Shown here piece after piece: positions 33,028 through 39,743 of a DNA stretch of 64,000 nt. Below the pieces are notes generated by a model. The model worked only from the letters and a program-made list of their open reading frames with translations. It was not told the origin of the DNA and did not search any database. A program made the translations under genes and the position numbers. Each line of letters begins with the position of its first letter. Position 1 is the stretch's first letter. The stretch is from assembly GCA_018267655.1 (NCBI GenBank), contig JAFDYB010000093.1:1-64000 (forward strand). Reading direction: 5' to 3'. The stretch comes from Bacteroidota bacterium. Lineage in GTDB: Bacteria; Bacteroidota; Bacteroidia; B-17B0; Aurantibacillaceae.

Positions 33028-34260
33028 ATGAGTCTCCAAGTAAATGTAAACGACATATTAACTCAACTTTACCAAAATAAAAGTGTAGTTGAATTTTTAT
33101 TTGCCAATCGCGATTCAATAACCGTAAACGAATTATTAAGTCGTGATGATATTAGTGCAGAGCAGTATCAAAAATTAAAATCACTTGAATTAGTTAGTGA
33201 ATACGAGAGTATAGTTAGTTTGAACGATGCTGTAACAGCAATGTTTGAAGACTTTATGGAAATTGGCGAAGTTACGCCTGGTTTTATTAATGATTACATT
33301 AATGAATTAAAAAGGTATATCCGTTTTTATCAAGAAGTGCATGAACACAGATTTTTACGTAGTATTAAAAAATATTTAAAAAGAACAAATATTGCGTTAA
33401 GTCGCGAAATTATAAAGCTCCAAAAAAATGTAGATGATACGTATAAAAATGAAGCAAATTACCGAATTAAAATTCAGAAGCTTGAAGACTATCGGCAAAA
33501 GCGCGACACAATTATTGAATTTATACATAAAACAGAAGATATTATTTTTGAAGCCCGCCAATTGTTTGCATTCACAAACGACCCGGAGCTGTATGGAATA
33601 GTAAGCTCATTAAAAATAGGACTTATTGAAAACTTAGATTTCTTAATTGAAATACAAACCGATATTACAGATTACATTAATAAAATTCAGTTTCAGATAG
33701 ATATTTATTTAAAAGCGCAACAATTAAAAGAAATTAAAGACCATGGCTTGTTGCACTATCAAACAAATTTTAAAGAAGTGGTAAATGCAATAAGTCCTAT
33801 AAAATTTAATGCCATAAAAGGACCACGCACCAAAGTAGCCGTTGAGTTTTTATTTACAGATGCCGGACACATACTTTGCAAAAAAGTAGCAGACAAATAC
33901 AAACTGTCGCGCTTATCGTTTAGAGGAATTGCAGGAAAATTACCAACTAATTTTAAAGACCAATTAATTGACAGGCAAATAAAATTAGATGTTGAAAAAC
34001 TAGTAGAACGATTTTTGCACCAAACAAAACACAATTTATTTGAATATTTAATTGAGTACAAGTTTCCAAAAGATTTAGGCGAGGTTTCTTTTGAAGACCG
34101 GCTTTCAATTTTTGTTGAAATAGCAATGGAATATCAAAACCAATTAGACTTTAAATATCGCTTAAACTACTTTGACTATCAAGATAAAAACAATAATAAA
34201 AAACGTTTAGGTTATACATTAATCCTACCAATAGAAAAAAAACAGAAAATTAAAGTTTAA
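33028..34260 (+). CDS. MukF/MksF/JetA-like kleisin subunit
   Basis: 410 residues with no signal peptide or TM helix. The N-terminal 100 residues form a small helical, winged-helix-like domain (SVVEFLFANRDSITVNELLS). A long helical middle follows (about 105-230, with ELKRYIRFYQEVHEHRFLRSIKKYL and QKLEDYRQKRDTIIEFIHKTEDIIFEARQLF). A second mixed alpha/beta domain (about 270-405) ends it. This order matches the kleisins of bacterial MukBEF, MksBEF and Wadjet JetA. The next two genes have MukE and MukB features, which makes the assignment much firmer than this sequence alone. Start ATG 33028; the next gene begins 9 bases after its stop. Confidence 0.65.
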   Translation: MSLQVNVNDILTQLYQNKSVVEFLFANRDSITVNELLSRDDISAEQYQKLKSLELVSEYESIVSLNDAVTAMFEDFMEIGEVTPGFINDYINELKRYIRFYQEVHEHRFLRSIKKYLKRTNIALSREIIKLQKNVDDTYKNEANYRIKIQKLEDYRQKRDTIIEFIHKTEDIIFEARQLFAFTNDPELYGIVSSLKIGLIENLDFLIEIQTDITDYINKIQFQIDIYLKAQQLKEIKDHGLLHYQTNFKEVVNAISPIKFNAIKGPRTKVAVEFLFTDAGHILCKKVADKYKLSRLSFRGIAGKLPTNFKDQLIDRQIKLDVEKLVERFLHQTKHNLFEYLIEYKFPKDLGEVSFEDRLSIFVEIAMEYQNQLDFKYRLNYFDYQDKNNNKKRLGYTLILPIEKKQKIKV

Positions 34261-34269
34261 AAAATAAAT

Positions 34270-34878
34270 ATGAACGAAATAGATTATAATTTACCAAAAC
34301 AAACACACGATATTTTTTCGGTGATGGCGCGCGGACATTTTATTAGCAGCAATGGCACAAAAGATAATATGGCAAAGTTGTATGATATAATAAACAGTCC
34401 TGAAAATTTTGACAGATTACAAGCATATTTTAATGTTATTAGATATAACATTGAGCGCGGAAATAACTACTTTTATTTTTCGCGAATAAACGAAGCCAAT
34501 AGCATTATTGAACAAAAGCTCGAAACCTTTGAGCGCTACATAGATATTGTAGATTTATTTGCAAGCATGGATAATAAAATTACAATAGGCTCGCGTTTTC
34601 GCCCAAGTGAAATAGCTGAGGAGTGTAACGCCAATGTTCGTTTAAAACAAAAATTACAAAAAATTCCTATTTACCGCAGCGAAACATTACTTAATAAGGT
34701 ACGCGATATTTGCAATATGATGTCTCGCGATTCGTTTTTAGAATTAGAAGATGAAGAGAGCGAAAACTATAAAGTACTAGATGCCTATACATATTTATTA
34801 GATGTAATTAATGCCATTAGCATATACGAAGCAAAAGATGGCATTGATGAAAATAGCAGCGGATTAATTTTAAATTAA
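34270..34878 (+). CDS. MukE/MksE/JetB-like accessory subunit
   Basis: 202 residues, soluble and mostly helical. The segment DIFSVMARGHFISSNGT followed by LQAYFNVIRYNIERGNNYFYFS is like the winged-helix core of MukE/MksE/JetB proteins. These bind the kleisin and regulate the SMC ATPase. The C-terminal half holds a further helical domain (SETLLNKVRDICNMMSRDSF) and an acidic stretch. It lies between the kleisin-like and SMC-like genes with 9- and 26-base gaps, exactly the E position of such operons. Family assignment rests on gene order and these motifs. Confidence 0.65.
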   Translation: MNEIDYNLPKQTHDIFSVMARGHFISSNGTKDNMAKLYDIINSPENFDRLQAYFNVIRYNIERGNNYFYFSRINEANSIIEQKLETFERYIDIVDLFASMDNKITIGSRFRPSEIAEECNANVRLKQKLQKIPIYRSETLLNKVRDICNMMSRDSFLELEDEESENYKVLDAYTYLLDVINAISIYEAKDGIDENSSGLILN

Positions 34879-34904
34879 AAATTAGAAAAGAAAACCAAAT
34901 TAAA

Positions 34905-37900
34905 ATGGAAAACGTAAGAATACTTAATAGAATTGTTGAAATAAATATTGCAAGTGTAAAATATGCAGATATCGAATTATGCGGAAACACTTGTTTTGTG
35001 GGAACAAATAATTTTGGTAAAACATCGTTACAACGCGCAATTTTATTTTTTTATAGCGCTAATAGTAGGGGTTTAGGAATATCGTCCTCTCAAAAAACAT
35101 TTGAAGAGCATTATTTTAGATATGAAAACTCCTACTTAATATATGAAGTATCAACTGACGAAAAGCCATTTTTTGTAATTGTTTATCGCCATAATAAATT
35201 AGTATTTCGTTTTGTAGATGCCCCGTATAACCCCGATTTTTTTCTAAATGCAAATGATGAGGCAATGAAAATAAAAGAAATTGTTTCAAACATTGAAAAA
35301 AGAGGTATCTACATATCCAATCAAATCGACACCTTTGAACGATATAGAAACATTATTTATGGTACCGAAACCGACAAACAACTTTCTAAATTTCATTTAC
35401 TAAAAGGAAATGAAAAATACAGTAACATTCCAAAATCAATTACTAACGTGTTTTTATCTTCTAAAAGTAGTATTGATTCACGTTTTATAAAAGATTTTAT
35501 AGCTAACTCATTAACCAGTGAAAGCAGCAGTATTAAGCTAGACCAAGTGGAGCGCCAGTTACGTCAGTTTAATGAAAAATATACAGATATAGAAATTTTT
35601 ATAAAAAAAGATACTCAGCAATTGATAGAAATGATTGATACAAAATACGATCAAGTTCAAATGCTAAAAGGATCACAAATAGAACTAGCCGAAAAACTGG
35701 GCGCATGTTTAAGATTTGCCGAAACCCAAAACGAAAGTATTAGAGAAGCCGCTAAGAAAAAAGAAGAAGAGTTAGAACAACTCGATAATACACACGAAGA
35801 GCAAACACTGCACATACAAGAAAAACAAAATAATTTACGCGAAGAAATTGGATTTTACGATAGAACAATTAGAGATGCCAACAAAAAATTAAAAGAATAT
35901 AAAGAAAAGCAAATTGATAACGCCGTTGAAAAAAACGCAGAGCGAGAAAAATTACAGGTTGAATTTAATATGGCGCGCAGAGAGTATGAAAGTCTTACCA
36001 GCAACGTGTCGAGCATCGAGTTAAAATACTCTTCGTTAATAGAGCAATTGCGAAACGATAAAGCAGCGTATATTAATAAGGTAAATTCAAATATTGTAAA
36101 CCTATCTAACCACTATAGCGAATTACTTTTACTCCAAAAAAACGATTTTAATAAACGTGAAAACGAACTTAAAAATCGTCGAGATGAGGCATTGGCAGCT
36201 GTAAATTCAGATATAACATTTAAACAAATTGAGTTTAATGAATTAAAAAGCGAAGAAAAAGTAATTAAAAATACTCGCTTTTATGAGCAAGAGGTTAAAA
36301 TTTTAGAAACAGAATTAAACGAACTAAGAGCAATTTCGTACAAAAATAAAAGCGAAAGAGCAATAAAGCAAAATTTAATTCAAACCATACAGCGCGAGTG
36401 GGAAAACGCAGAAGGCAAATTAAAATTAGCCTTATCAACTAAAATAAATCAATCAAATAACGAAATTATTTCGTTAAAAAATGAAATAAAAGAAATTGAA
36501 TCAAAGCTAAATGTACAAGCCGATGCACTTTATGGGTATCTTGAAAAAAATGTAAAAAACTGGCAAGGAACAATTGGTAAAGTAGTTAATGAAAAACTGC
36601 TTTTTCGCAATGATTTAAAGCCAGAGCAAATTGAAGCCACATCAAATACCCTTTATGGAATTAGCTTGCAATTAGATAATGTTGAAGTTGTATCAAAAAG
36701 TATTGAAGAGTATCAATTTGAAAAAAATGAACGCTTAGCTTCAATCAAAGATCTTGAAGAAACCCTTAATCAATTCCAAATATCAAACAATGATGAAAAA
36801 TTATTGGCCGCTGATAAGTACGGAAAACAATTAGGCGAATTAAAAGAAGATGTTAAAGTTCTTTCATATTCATTAGAATTAGCAGAAAAACGAGAGCAAA
36901 AATTACAATTAGAGTTAGACGAATGGAAACAAAAGGCATCTGAAGAAATTGAACAATCTTTAATCGGAAATAAACAAAGAATAAATATTTTAGAGGAAGA
37001 GTTAGCTATTCTTAATAAAAAGAAAAATTTAACCATAAATGATTACGATCAACAATTAGATAAAATAAAAATTTTTAATACAGATAGGTTAGCTGACTTA
37101 AAAGACAGGCAAGATACTGAAATGAGTGAATTGGAGGTTGAGAAAAAAAATACGGTTAAAGAATACGAGGACAGAGAAAATGAGATGAGTAAAGAGAAAG
37201 AAACCAACTTTAAAAGTAAAGGTGTTGATTCAAAACAGTTAAAAATAGTTGAAGATAAAATGCGCGAACTACAAGATGCCTTAAAGGAAATTGAACAATA
37301 TGCCCAACTTGTAAGCGATTATTTTAAAGATAAGCGCGAAACCTTTGATAAACTACCCGATTTAATTCAAAAAAAAGAAGATTTTGTAAAACAAAATAAC
37401 GAATTAGCCTCTTTACTTGAAGAAAATAGCCGCAAATTTAATTTAAAGCGCATGGAGTTGAATAAGCAAAAACGCGCATTTGACGAGGAGTTAATTGAAT
37501 TTAATAATGGTGTAAGATTTTATACAGGAAACTTTAGAGAAACTCCAGTGTATAATCGCTATGCCGAAATTATTGAGCGTGCTGAACCTAAGAGAACTAA
37601 TTTTAATATTATTGATTTATGCTCTCAAATGTTAAAAAATGATTCGCACTTTAATGATGAATACACTTCATTTCAACGCTTTGTAAATGAATTTGCCGGC
37701 AAATTCAGAATTGATAATCACTTTAATTTTATAATTAGAAACGATGCTACACAAGGGGAATACGAACGCTTTGCTCAAAATTTACGCTCGTTTTTAAATG
37801 AAAATAAAATTGATTTTAGCGTTGCCGAAACAGCCACTCAAATTGGTTTGGTTACTGATAGTATAGCCAGTAAAGTAAAAGAATTAAGCGGGCAAAAAGA

Positions 37901-38588
37901 TAAAATAAATCATATTATTACCTTAATTGCCGAAGATTTTAAAAAAGCTGAATTTGAAGAGAGCAAATTAATTGAATTTATAAAAATAAAAATTGAAGAA
38001 TCTGATAATAAAGTATATCGTTTGCTTAAAAAAATTGAAGAGTTTAGAGAAGAACACGGCTTGGTTTACAATGAAGGTTTATTTAATACTGATTTTGCAA
38101 CTATTTCAAAAAGAGAAATTAGTCAGCGCGCCGTTAAATTGCTCGATCAACTGCGCATAGCTATTAAAGAGCAAGAACAAGAGGAGATTAGACTTCAGGA
38201 TTTATTTGAACTTAAATTTAACATTAAAGAAGGTATGAATGAAACCGGTTGGACTCACAAGATTGATAGCATTGGTAGTACCGGCACAGATATTTTGGTA
38301 AAAGCAATTATTTATATTACGCTTTTGCACGTATTTATAAAAGAGAGCAGTCACCGCAGTAGCAAAGACTTTAAGGTACACTGTATAATTGATGAAGTAG
38401 GACAAATTAGCGCACATTATTTAAAAGAATTGTTGAAGTTCGCCAAAAATAGAAATATTATGATGATTAATGGTTTACCAAATAAATCCGGTTTGGAAAG
38501 TCATTACAAATTCACATACCAATTTAGACGCGAAGAAAATAATAATGTTCGTATTTTCCCAAGTATTGTAACTGAAGTAGAAGCTTAA
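34905..38588 (+). CDS. MukB/MksB/JetC-like SMC ATPase
   Basis: 1227-residue SMC-type ATPase. Walker A is GTNNFGKTS at residues 33-41. An ABC-type signature SIGSTGTD lies near 1122-1129 and Walker B VHCIIDEVG near 1157-1165, with D1163 and E1164. Two long coiled-coil arms (about 265-535 and 610-900) flank a hinge-sized segment at about 540-605 (LYGYLEKNVKNWQGTIGK). This head-arm-hinge-arm-head order is that of SMC proteins, which entrap and extrude DNA loops. The divergent Walker A and short tail point to the MukB/MksB/JetC branch rather than housekeeping SMC. No partner nuclease gene follows. All three genes share one strand with short gaps. Confidence 0.8.
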   Translation: MENVRILNRIVEINIASVKYADIELCGNTCFVGTNNFGKTSLQRAILFFYSANSRGLGISSSQKTFEEHYFRYENSYLIYEVSTDEKPFFVIVYRHNKLVFRFVDAPYNPDFFLNANDEAMKIKEIVSNIEKRGIYISNQIDTFERYRNIIYGTETDKQLSKFHLLKGNEKYSNIPKSITNVFLSSKSSIDSRFIKDFIANSLTSESSSIKLDQVERQLRQFNEKYTDIEIFIKKDTQQLIEMIDTKYDQVQMLKGSQIELAEKLGACLRFAETQNESIREAAKKKEEELEQLDNTHEEQTLHIQEKQNNLREEIGFYDRTIRDANKKLKEYKEKQIDNAVEKNAEREKLQVEFNMARREYESLTSNVSSIELKYSSLIEQLRNDKAAYINKVNSNIVNLSNHYSELLLLQKNDFNKRENELKNRRDEALAAVNSDITFKQIEFNELKSEEKVIKNTRFYEQEVKILETELNELRAISYKNKSERAIKQNLIQTIQREWENAEGKLKLALSTKINQSNNEIISLKNEIKEIESKLNVQADALYGYLEKNVKNWQGTIGKVVNEKLLFRNDLKPEQIEATSNTLYGISLQLDNVEVVSKSIEEYQFEKNERLASIKDLEETLNQFQISNNDEKLLAADKYGKQLGELKEDVKVLSYSLELAEKREQKLQLELDEWKQKASEEIEQSLIGNKQRINILEEELAILNKKKNLTINDYDQQLDKIKIFNTDRLADLKDRQDTEMSELEVEKKNTVKEYEDRENEMSKEKETNFKSKGVDSKQLKIVEDKMRELQDALKEIEQYAQLVSDYFKDKRETFDKLPDLIQKKEDFVKQNNELASLLEENSRKFNLKRMELNKQKRAFDEELIEFNNGVRFYTGNFRETPVYNRYAEIIERAEPKRTNFNIIDLCSQMLKNDSHFNDEYTSFQRFVNEFAGKFRIDNHFNFIIRNDATQGEYERFAQNLRSFLNENKIDFSVAETATQIGLVTDSIASKVKELSGQKDKINHIITLIAEDFKKAEFEESKLIEFIKIKIEESDNKVYRLLKKIEEFREEHGLVYNEGLFNTDFATISKREISQRAVKLLDQLRIAIKEQEQEEIRLQDLFELKFNIKEGMNETGWTHKIDSIGSTGTDILVKAIIYITLLHVFIKESSHRSSKDFKVHCIIDEVGQISAHYLKELLKFAKNRNIMMINGLPNKSGLESHYKFTYQFRREENNNVRIFPSIVTEVEA

Positions 38589-38617: not shown

Positions 38618-39144
38618 ATGCAAAAAATAGCATTTCTGTTGTTATTAATTTTGTTTTTATTTCTTTTAAATCGATGCGCTGAGCGATGGTATATAGTTGA
38701 AGAAAACGAATACATCTTTAATACAAGCGATTCGTTAATAAAAAAAACGGTTTTAATTTAATTACTGCGTTAAAAGACAGAACTATTTTTGAAAAGCAAA
38801 TTCAAAAACCAATTTCTTTAAATCGTATTTGGGCTATTTACGAATTTGAAGCATTAAGCAATTCTGCCGTTAGCGATGCTTTTGCAAAAGTTGAGAGTTT
38901 TTCAGAAAACAACGCTATGTTTTCTTCTACAAAAAATGGCTTGAAGCATTTAATTGCCGAACCTAATATTTAGTGCAGAATCAGAGATTCTGTAATAATT
39001 TTTAATGATAAAAATAACAAACTTTCAAAATTTAATGTCTCCATCCATTTGTTAAATCTACCAAAGGAAACGCTAAGTATTCGCAACTTTAATATTTCAA
39101 TAAAATATTTGGTAAATGGAACACTACCATTCTACACGAAATAA
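38618..39144 (+). pseudogene. Broken lipoprotein-like gene
   Basis: An ORF starts at ATG 38618 (MQKIAFLLLLILFLFLLNRC, a signal-like start) and stops at 38761. The reading resumes one frame over just after an A8 tract at 38740-38747 (GFNLITALKDRTIFEKQIQK) and runs to TAG 38971. The same frame then continues as CRIRDSVIIFNDKNNKLS to TAA 39142. One missing A and one nonsense codon would explain this. It lies 29 bases after the SMC gene, so it may once have been the fourth gene of that operon. Its family was not recognised. Confidence 0.65.
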
Positions 39145-39145
39145 A

Positions 39146-39302
39146 CTTACAAAAAAGCGGGAGTTGATTTATACCCTAACCGATAGCATTGCCTACCAAT
39201 TTGGTAGCGAAAGCAACAAAAAAATTAGAAAAAACATTTGCTAATTGGAAAGGTGATGCAGAGCAAGTAGATGATGTAACGGTAATTGGGGTGAGGGTAT
39301 AG
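39146..39302 (+). pseudogene. Remnant of a SpoIIE-type PP2C phosphatase
   Basis: One frame reads LTKKRELIYTLTDSIAYQFGSE, matching the GDxLYxxTDGxxDQFGG block of bacterial SpoIIE-domain phosphatases but with the metal-site Gly changed to Ser and DQFG changed to YQFG. A frame shift later, the sequence reads TFANWKGDAEQVDDVTVIGVRV and stops. That is the family's C-terminal WKGxxEQVDDVxxIGxxx end. About 25 codons between the blocks are missing, and no catalytic start exists. It is clearly a decayed fragment. Confidence 0.75.
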
Positions 39303-39308
39303 TACAAA

Positions 39309-39743
39309 TCAATATTCTAATTTTGTAGAAACAGCAATTCTGTTCCAAAAGTTAATTTGCCCGATTATTAATATTATTTGAGCAATTTGCTTATCGTTGA
39401 AATGCTTTTTTGCTTTTTTATAGGTAGTGTTTTTAAGCCCTTGTTTTGAAATTAATGTAACCTCCTCCGTAATGGCTAGCACAGTTTTTTCTACATCGCT
39501 AAACAAAGGGCTATCTTTCCAGGCAGATAAAGCGTAAATTTTTTGTTCGCTTTCGCCCGCATTGCGCGCATCAATGGTATGCATATTTAAACAATACGCA
39601 CATTTATTAATTTGCGAAGCTCTAATTTTAATTAGCTCGCGCAGTTGCAAACTAAGATCAGACTTTGCTAAATAATTTTCCATTTCAATTAAAATTTTAT
39701 AAGATGCCGGCTCAAGATTTTTTATGTTTATTCGTTTTTCCAT
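39309..39743 (-). CDS. Carboxymuconolactone decarboxylase-family (AhpD-like) protein
   Basis: 144 residues of the AhpD/CMD fold. The CAYCLNMHT motif (about residues 50-58) carries the CxxC pair and His used in the peroxidase cycle of AhpD-type proteins. RELIKIRASQIN precedes it, the usual pattern. It likely acts as a thiol-dependent peroxidase or related oxidoreductase in the cytosol. It starts one base after the neighbouring PEP-mutase-like gene ends, so the two are an operon. Its end nearly abuts the SpoIIE remnant. Confidence 0.88.
   Translation of the reverse strand: MEKRINIKNLEPASYKILIEMENYLAKSDLSLQLRELIKIRASQINKCAYCLNMHTIDARNAGESEQKIYALSAWKDSPLFSDVEKTVLAITEEVTLISKQGLKNTTYKKAKKHFNDKQIAQIILIIGQINFWNRIAVSTKLEY

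Follow-up and report, generated by a model that had tools for sequence, protein, structure and literature searches.

The mksF-mksE-mksB operon of this Bacteroidota bacterium carries the genes of a complete MksBEF-type SMC complex, which is probably the housekeeping condensin of a whole Bacteroidia order, taking the place of Smc-ScpAB. It seems to be the only recognisable chromosome-folding machine of the order, and we read it as related to a Wadjet-like defence system, without the nuclease of that system. The operon lies in a 64,000-nt stretch of contig JAFDYB010000093.1 (the window). A preliminary description of this DNA had suggested a condensin-only role or a lineage-specific variant. This is the best reading of a core copy that is present almost throughout the order without a nuclease, and it gains from a companion fact that lies outside the window's view: the whole order is devoid of Smc-ScpAB.

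Operon and subunits

The operon consists of three adjacent open reading frames on the + strand (410, 202 and 1227 residues), separated by 9 nt (first and second gene) and 26 nt (second and third gene). Their positions are exactly those given in the preliminary description, and its assignment of the locus to the MukFEB/MksFEB type holds: PF21980, PF12128/DUF3584 and the kleisin fold are all found. The operon belongs to the MksBEF kind, as its gene order, its MksE-family member, its kleisin fold and its SMC motifs show. Its features are as follows.

33028..34260, + strand: mksF-like kleisin, 410 aa (open reading frame, AlphaFold2 model, Foldseek; relatives 65-82% identical)
Domains of MksF in the AlphaFold2 model (approximate residues): N-terminal winged helix 1-66; helical bundle 67-239; flexible linker 240-320; C-terminal winged helix 322-401
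34270..34878, + strand: mksE, KITE subunit, 202 aa (PF21980; relatives 74-90% identical)
34905..38588, + strand: mksB, SMC ATPase, 1227 aa (PF12128/DUF3584; relatives 71-83% identical)
35001..35027, + strand: MksB Walker A, residues 33-41, GTNNFGKTS (conserved in 17 homologues)
36525..36704, + strand: MksB probable hinge, residues about 541-600, a conserved segment between two coiled coils (conservation, position)
38268..38291, + strand: MksB ABC signature region, residues 1122-1129, SIGSTGTD (invariant in 17 homologues)
38385..38396, + strand: MksB end of Walker B and catalytic Glu, residues 1161-1164, IIDE (invariant in 17 homologues)

The product of the second gene is MksE, which matches PF21980 at 109 bits (cut-off 27). 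The third protein matches PF12128/DUF3584, a group described as 'MukB-like' in the PADLOC JetC1 model, at 209 bits. The preliminary description had located Walker A at residues 33-41, the signature at about 1122 and the Walker B aspartate and glutamate at D1163-E1164, and all three motifs are conserved in 17 homologues with 71-83% identity to the window protein; residue 37 of Walker A is F in nearly all of them. MksB probably carries these ATPase motifs at the opposite ends of long predicted coiled coils, with a hinge between them.

The first protein has no family match by sequence, either in Pfam or in profile searches. With 50 homologues as input, AlphaFold2 gave a model of moderate confidence for it (mean pLDDT of 67.7). 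The fold comparison proposed in the preliminary description agrees with a kleisin: the top 12 Foldseek matches of the model are all MukF/JetA chains (best E 1.7e-5), and the first unrelated structure follows at E 0.066. VIA-align also places MukF chains first, at Z 13.7 and with a high rmsd between flexibly placed domains, although helical bundles reach high Z with unrelated proteins in such alignments too. The moderate-confidence model thus points to a MukF/JetA-type kleisin by fold.

A sequence search of solved structures with the SMC, kleisin and MksE profiles gave nothing relevant, and the Pfam families of MukB, MukF and MukE, the N-terminal domain of MukB (PF04310) included, have no match among the window proteins. 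The JetABC models of PADLOC do not match the window proteins either. The sole PADLOC match is a weak one of AriA to the SMC protein; it reflects the common ABC ATPase domain, and an AriA identity was rejected.

Conservation across the order

The order is uncultured, and almost every one of its species has kept the operon. In a sample of 87 genomes (one family, ten genera; 62 genomes rated good), a profile search finds MksE in 77, including 60 of the 62 good ones, and by our count 72 of the 87 have a full-length MksE in the band of 99-111 bits to which that of the window belongs. A few genomes carry second, divergent MksE copies. The core MksE was not seen in three good genomes (G013, G066 and G085).

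The F-E-B order is kept in relatives from GTDB genomes at 65-90% identity, as the comparison of neighbours proposed in the preliminary description brings out; the decayed genes downstream of the window's operon, in contrast, are not shared. The flanks are not syntenic with the window, except for one gene common to two close relatives. Passenger genes are tolerated inside the operon of relatives, which fits a core complex that has moved within genomes but has rarely been lost. Such insertions include a Fic-type gene between mksF and mksE in two close relatives (L001:6953-8302 and L003:7064-8374) and, in a subclade of the relatives, a secreted protein of ~330 aa without a Pfam match between mksE and mksB (L015, L017, L020-L023, L025-L027, L043, L057, L065-L067, L079).

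Codon comparisons suggest that the operon is under strong purifying selection. The dN/dS of core MksB is 0.009-0.040 (Nei-Gojobori, six pairs with finite dS), where the ratios are rough, as some of the six pairs have dS > 1.5 and three further pairs are saturated; MksF and MksE give 0.003-0.030. A single pair of accessory systems, described below, gives 0.087 for the SMC protein and 0.21 for the TOPRIM protein.

Absence of a nuclease

The preliminary description had noted that the operon has no nuclease and had proposed a genome-wide search for an unlinked JetD/MksG. Both the observation and the search lead to the same result. No JetD/MksG is linked to the operon in the window, JetD_C has no match in the whole genome, which is 99.95% complete, and the genome contains no homologue of a short JetD (a TOPRIM protein of ~285 aa), as judged with a profile derived from the TOPRIM proteins beside the closest relatives. 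A very divergent nuclease, or condensin, might escape profile searches of this type.

The same holds for the order. Wherever the operon was read among genomes with the core copy it is without a nuclease, and none stands next to it in any relative read. Seven of the 87 genomes have JetD_C, always on a contig with a divergent MksE copy that lies ~4-5 kb away, and never near the core copy; one of the genomes in which the core copy was not found has such a JetD_C-linked divergent MksE (G013). Three of the 87 genomes encode the short TOPRIM protein, and there too it adjoins second copies. The absence of the nuclease is thus order-wide and old and is not a recent local event.

Three possible traces of a nuclease were considered and rejected. 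The gap of ~1 kb between mksE and mksB in many relatives does not hide one: it is occupied mostly by the secreted ~330-aa protein, and by Fic, DprA and other passengers. The loss of the 'IFDR' motif, through which JetB contacts JetD, is not a usable marker, since the core MksE has IF[AS][VIL]M but the nuclease-bearing cousins vary too (IFKI, IFEI, IFER). Finally, the preliminary description had seen a broken lipoprotein gene and a SpoIIE scar in the nuclease's place. The decay is real: at about 38619-39310 there is a frameshifted lipoprotein-like reading frame and a fragment that ends in DDVTVIGVRV, and the last ~25-38 residues of this stretch resemble SpoIIE-like proteins found in other loci. 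As a mark of recent nuclease loss it fails, because it is private to this genome, the flanks differ in every relative and no relative read has a nuclease beside the core operon. The decayed genes are irrelevant to the question of nuclease loss.

Nuclease-bearing relatives and the direction of change

The nearest relatives of the operon outside the order, together with three extra copies within it, are four-gene systems. Their F, E and B proteins have about 398, 190 and 1225 aa, and the fourth gene encodes a protein of ~285 aa with the E...DxD motifs of TOPRIM domains. This protein matches DUF7281 and, near the cut-off, JetD_C. In hhalign, each subunit of the core operon aligns over its full length with its counterpart in these accessory systems, at probability 100 (E 1e-43, 3e-39 and 2e-140 for the three), and the SMC identity is about 28%. 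They are also found on plasmid-listed records in Phocaeicola and Persicobacter. PADLOC makes no Wadjet call on them and gives only weak JetD matches. These systems (L117, L118, L119, L120, L124, L170, L171 and L187-L190, from Bacteroidia genomes and plasmid records) are a candidate for an unlisted Wadjet-like subtype. In a further accessory system (L123, G052:C4), the SMC gene is split into frames of 551 and 594 aa and the TOPRIM gene is intact. More distant cousins on proteobacterial plasmids (L181, L182, L183) have the order SMC-KITE-kleisin-TOPRIM, not F-E-B-D.

The core operons form one fully supported clade in the SMC tree. The other nuclease-less members are two Persicobacter replicons, Parabacteroides distasonis and G212, and their placements together with that of the core need at least 3 (3-4) changes; a relative with a TOPRIM gene cut by the contig end (L122) was labelled as nuclease-bearing. 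The P. distasonis copy (L185) stands among gcvT, NAD synthase and glutamine synthetase genes, and with such housekeeping neighbours the record listed as a 'plasmid' may instead come from the chromosome. The tree favours nuclease loss as the direction of change, because the nuclease-less members are scattered in it and the proteobacterial systems that serve as distant outgroups have a fourth gene, which is TOPRIM-like. The branches are long, the root of the core clade with respect to Persicobacter has an AU p of 0.44, and the number of losses can be stated only as at least 3 changes.

Smc-ScpAB in the order and the class

The curated models of ScpA and of canonical Smc, both of which match in control genomes, find neither protein in any of the 87 order genomes (0/87 each, for Smc over the curated cut-off). 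In the genome of the window, SMC_N picks out RecN, RecF and an OLD-type protein above its cut-off, and no Smc.

A sample of 296 Bacteroidia genomes, each at least 90% complete, extends the comparison to the class. Of these genomes, 93 have MksE, 69 have ScpA and 16 have JetD_C; MksE and ScpA coincide in 12. This overlap falls to 6 once nine genomes with a JetD-linked copy as their sole MksE, picked by hand from the tables, are set aside (Fisher p 1.4e-5, kinship ignored). MksE and ScpA thus appear, by their profile matches, to tend towards mutual exclusion class-wide. Three class members (G165, G266, G354) have ScpA and an Mks copy without a recognised nuclease. In almost half of the sample (146/296), the Pfam models for MksE and ScpA both give no match, and these genomes may hold more divergent complexes. 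A class-wide search with a narrow profile of the core SMC missed known relatives and is excluded from the counts.

Mks-like loci in other families of the class are organised differently: some have no nuclease, and in some the TOPRIM protein is a different one. In several of them (L131-L139, L144, L151, L156), the gene of an ~890-aa SMC-like protein precedes those of a 398-aa protein and of MksE, and in two (L151, L156) a TOPRIM-like protein of ~264 aa additionally lies between those genes.

Proposed function and alternative explanations

Complex formation, loop extrusion and a chromosomal role are what we infer for the three proteins. The MksF kleisin, with dimers of the KITE protein MksE, would close the MksB dimers, which bear the ATPase heads, to give a ring-shaped DNA motor. 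Powered by ATP hydrolysis, the complex would trap DNA and extrude it in loops, and the loops would compact the chromosome and help in its segregation, so that MksBEF would substitute for the Smc-ScpAB missing from the order. In the nuclease-bearing cousins with the ~285-aa TOPRIM protein, the same motor would run round a small circle and trigger cutting; in the core operon, which has no cutter, the folding activity alone would remain.

The complex might instead act in plasmid defence with an unlinked or unrelated nuclease recruited in trans, so that only its operon layout would set it apart from a Wadjet. A TOPRIM protein does adjoin B in the closest relatives, and another contig of this genome encodes an OLD-type protein (L193) with an ATPase and, by inspection of its sequence, an apparent TOPRIM region. 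OLD proteins have an ATPase of their own, however, and the genome contains no homologue of JetD_C or of the short JetD. The order copy is near-universal and strongly purified, whereas defence genes are patchy, and members of the order gain separate, complete nuclease-bearing systems. Recruitment in trans is therefore quite unlikely.

It is also unlikely that the operon encodes a secondary condensin, as in Pseudomonas aeruginosa, while another, unrecognised SMC complex does the main work. The three class members that combine ScpA with a copy without a recognised nuclease are a precedent for such an arrangement, but Smc and ScpA are absent from all 87 order genomes by models that perform in controls, and SMC_N finds no other Smc-like protein in the window's genome. 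Least of all is the operon the decaying remnant of a defence island that lost its nuclease first: the decayed genes directly downstream invite this idea and are private to this genome, and three intact reading frames, invariant catalytic residues and a dN/dS of about 0.01-0.04 across the order make it extremely improbable.

Significance

In 2023, a Hi-C study reported finding no homologue of any known condensin in two Bacteroidetes; according to its authors, both depend on SMC complexes that are still unidentified (PMC10197239). The housekeeping condensin proposed here is a testable candidate type for the machine that folds Bacteroidota chromosomes. As far as we have checked, an order with an MksBEF type as its only recognisable condensin is new; Bacteroidota members are possibly mentioned in the founding MksBEF paper.

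MukBEF/MksBEF condensins have been proposed to derive from Wadjet-type defence systems (PMC10586767), and nuclease-bearing accessory systems beside a nuclease-less core of the same family form a natural series for testing this proposal. We tentatively suggest that the whole order may have swapped Smc-ScpAB for a nuclease-less descendant of a Wadjet-like plasmid cutter and that similar conversions may have occurred more than once in Bacteroidota, as the nuclease-less members in Persicobacter, P. distasonis and G212 would suggest. If true, such conversions of a defence machine to a condensin would explain some of the 'missing' Bacteroidota condensins.

Comparison with known systems

The nearest relatives in all three subunits are the accessory systems with the ~285-aa TOPRIM protein (e.g. 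L117, L171 and the plasmid locus L187), which differ from the core operon by the presence of that protein, by being extra copies and, in some cases, by being plasmid-borne. Wadjet/MksBEFG (JetABCD) has in common with the operon the F-E-B order, the MksE family, a JetA-like kleisin fold and a DUF3584-type SMC. Unlike Wadjet, the operon has no JetD/MksG, it is not matched by the PADLOC JetABC models, and it is an order-wide core gene set as opposed to a sporadic one. An hhalign comparison with E. coli MukF/E/B and with JetABC profiles of the class gave nothing significant, so the link to MukFEB/JetABC rests on Pfam profiles and structure. The operon is not a Wadjet, given the nuclease searches, and not an enterobacterial MukBEF, given the sequence families.

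MksBEF of Pseudomonas aeruginosa, by its description, resembles the operon in its composition: a kleisin, an MksE-type KITE, a MukB-like SMC and no nuclease. It is a second, nuclease-less condensin with a reported chromosomal role (PMC7485682, PMC10586767). P. aeruginosa also has Smc, unlike the order described here, from which Smc-ScpAB is absent as a whole. Escherichia coli MukBEF shares the mukFEB gene order and the MukF-like kleisin fold and differs in its longer SMC (1486 aa, as opposed to 1227 aa) and in PF04310, which the operon lacks. It is the sole condensin of its host in place of Smc-ScpAB, and this is the position that we propose for the operon in its order.
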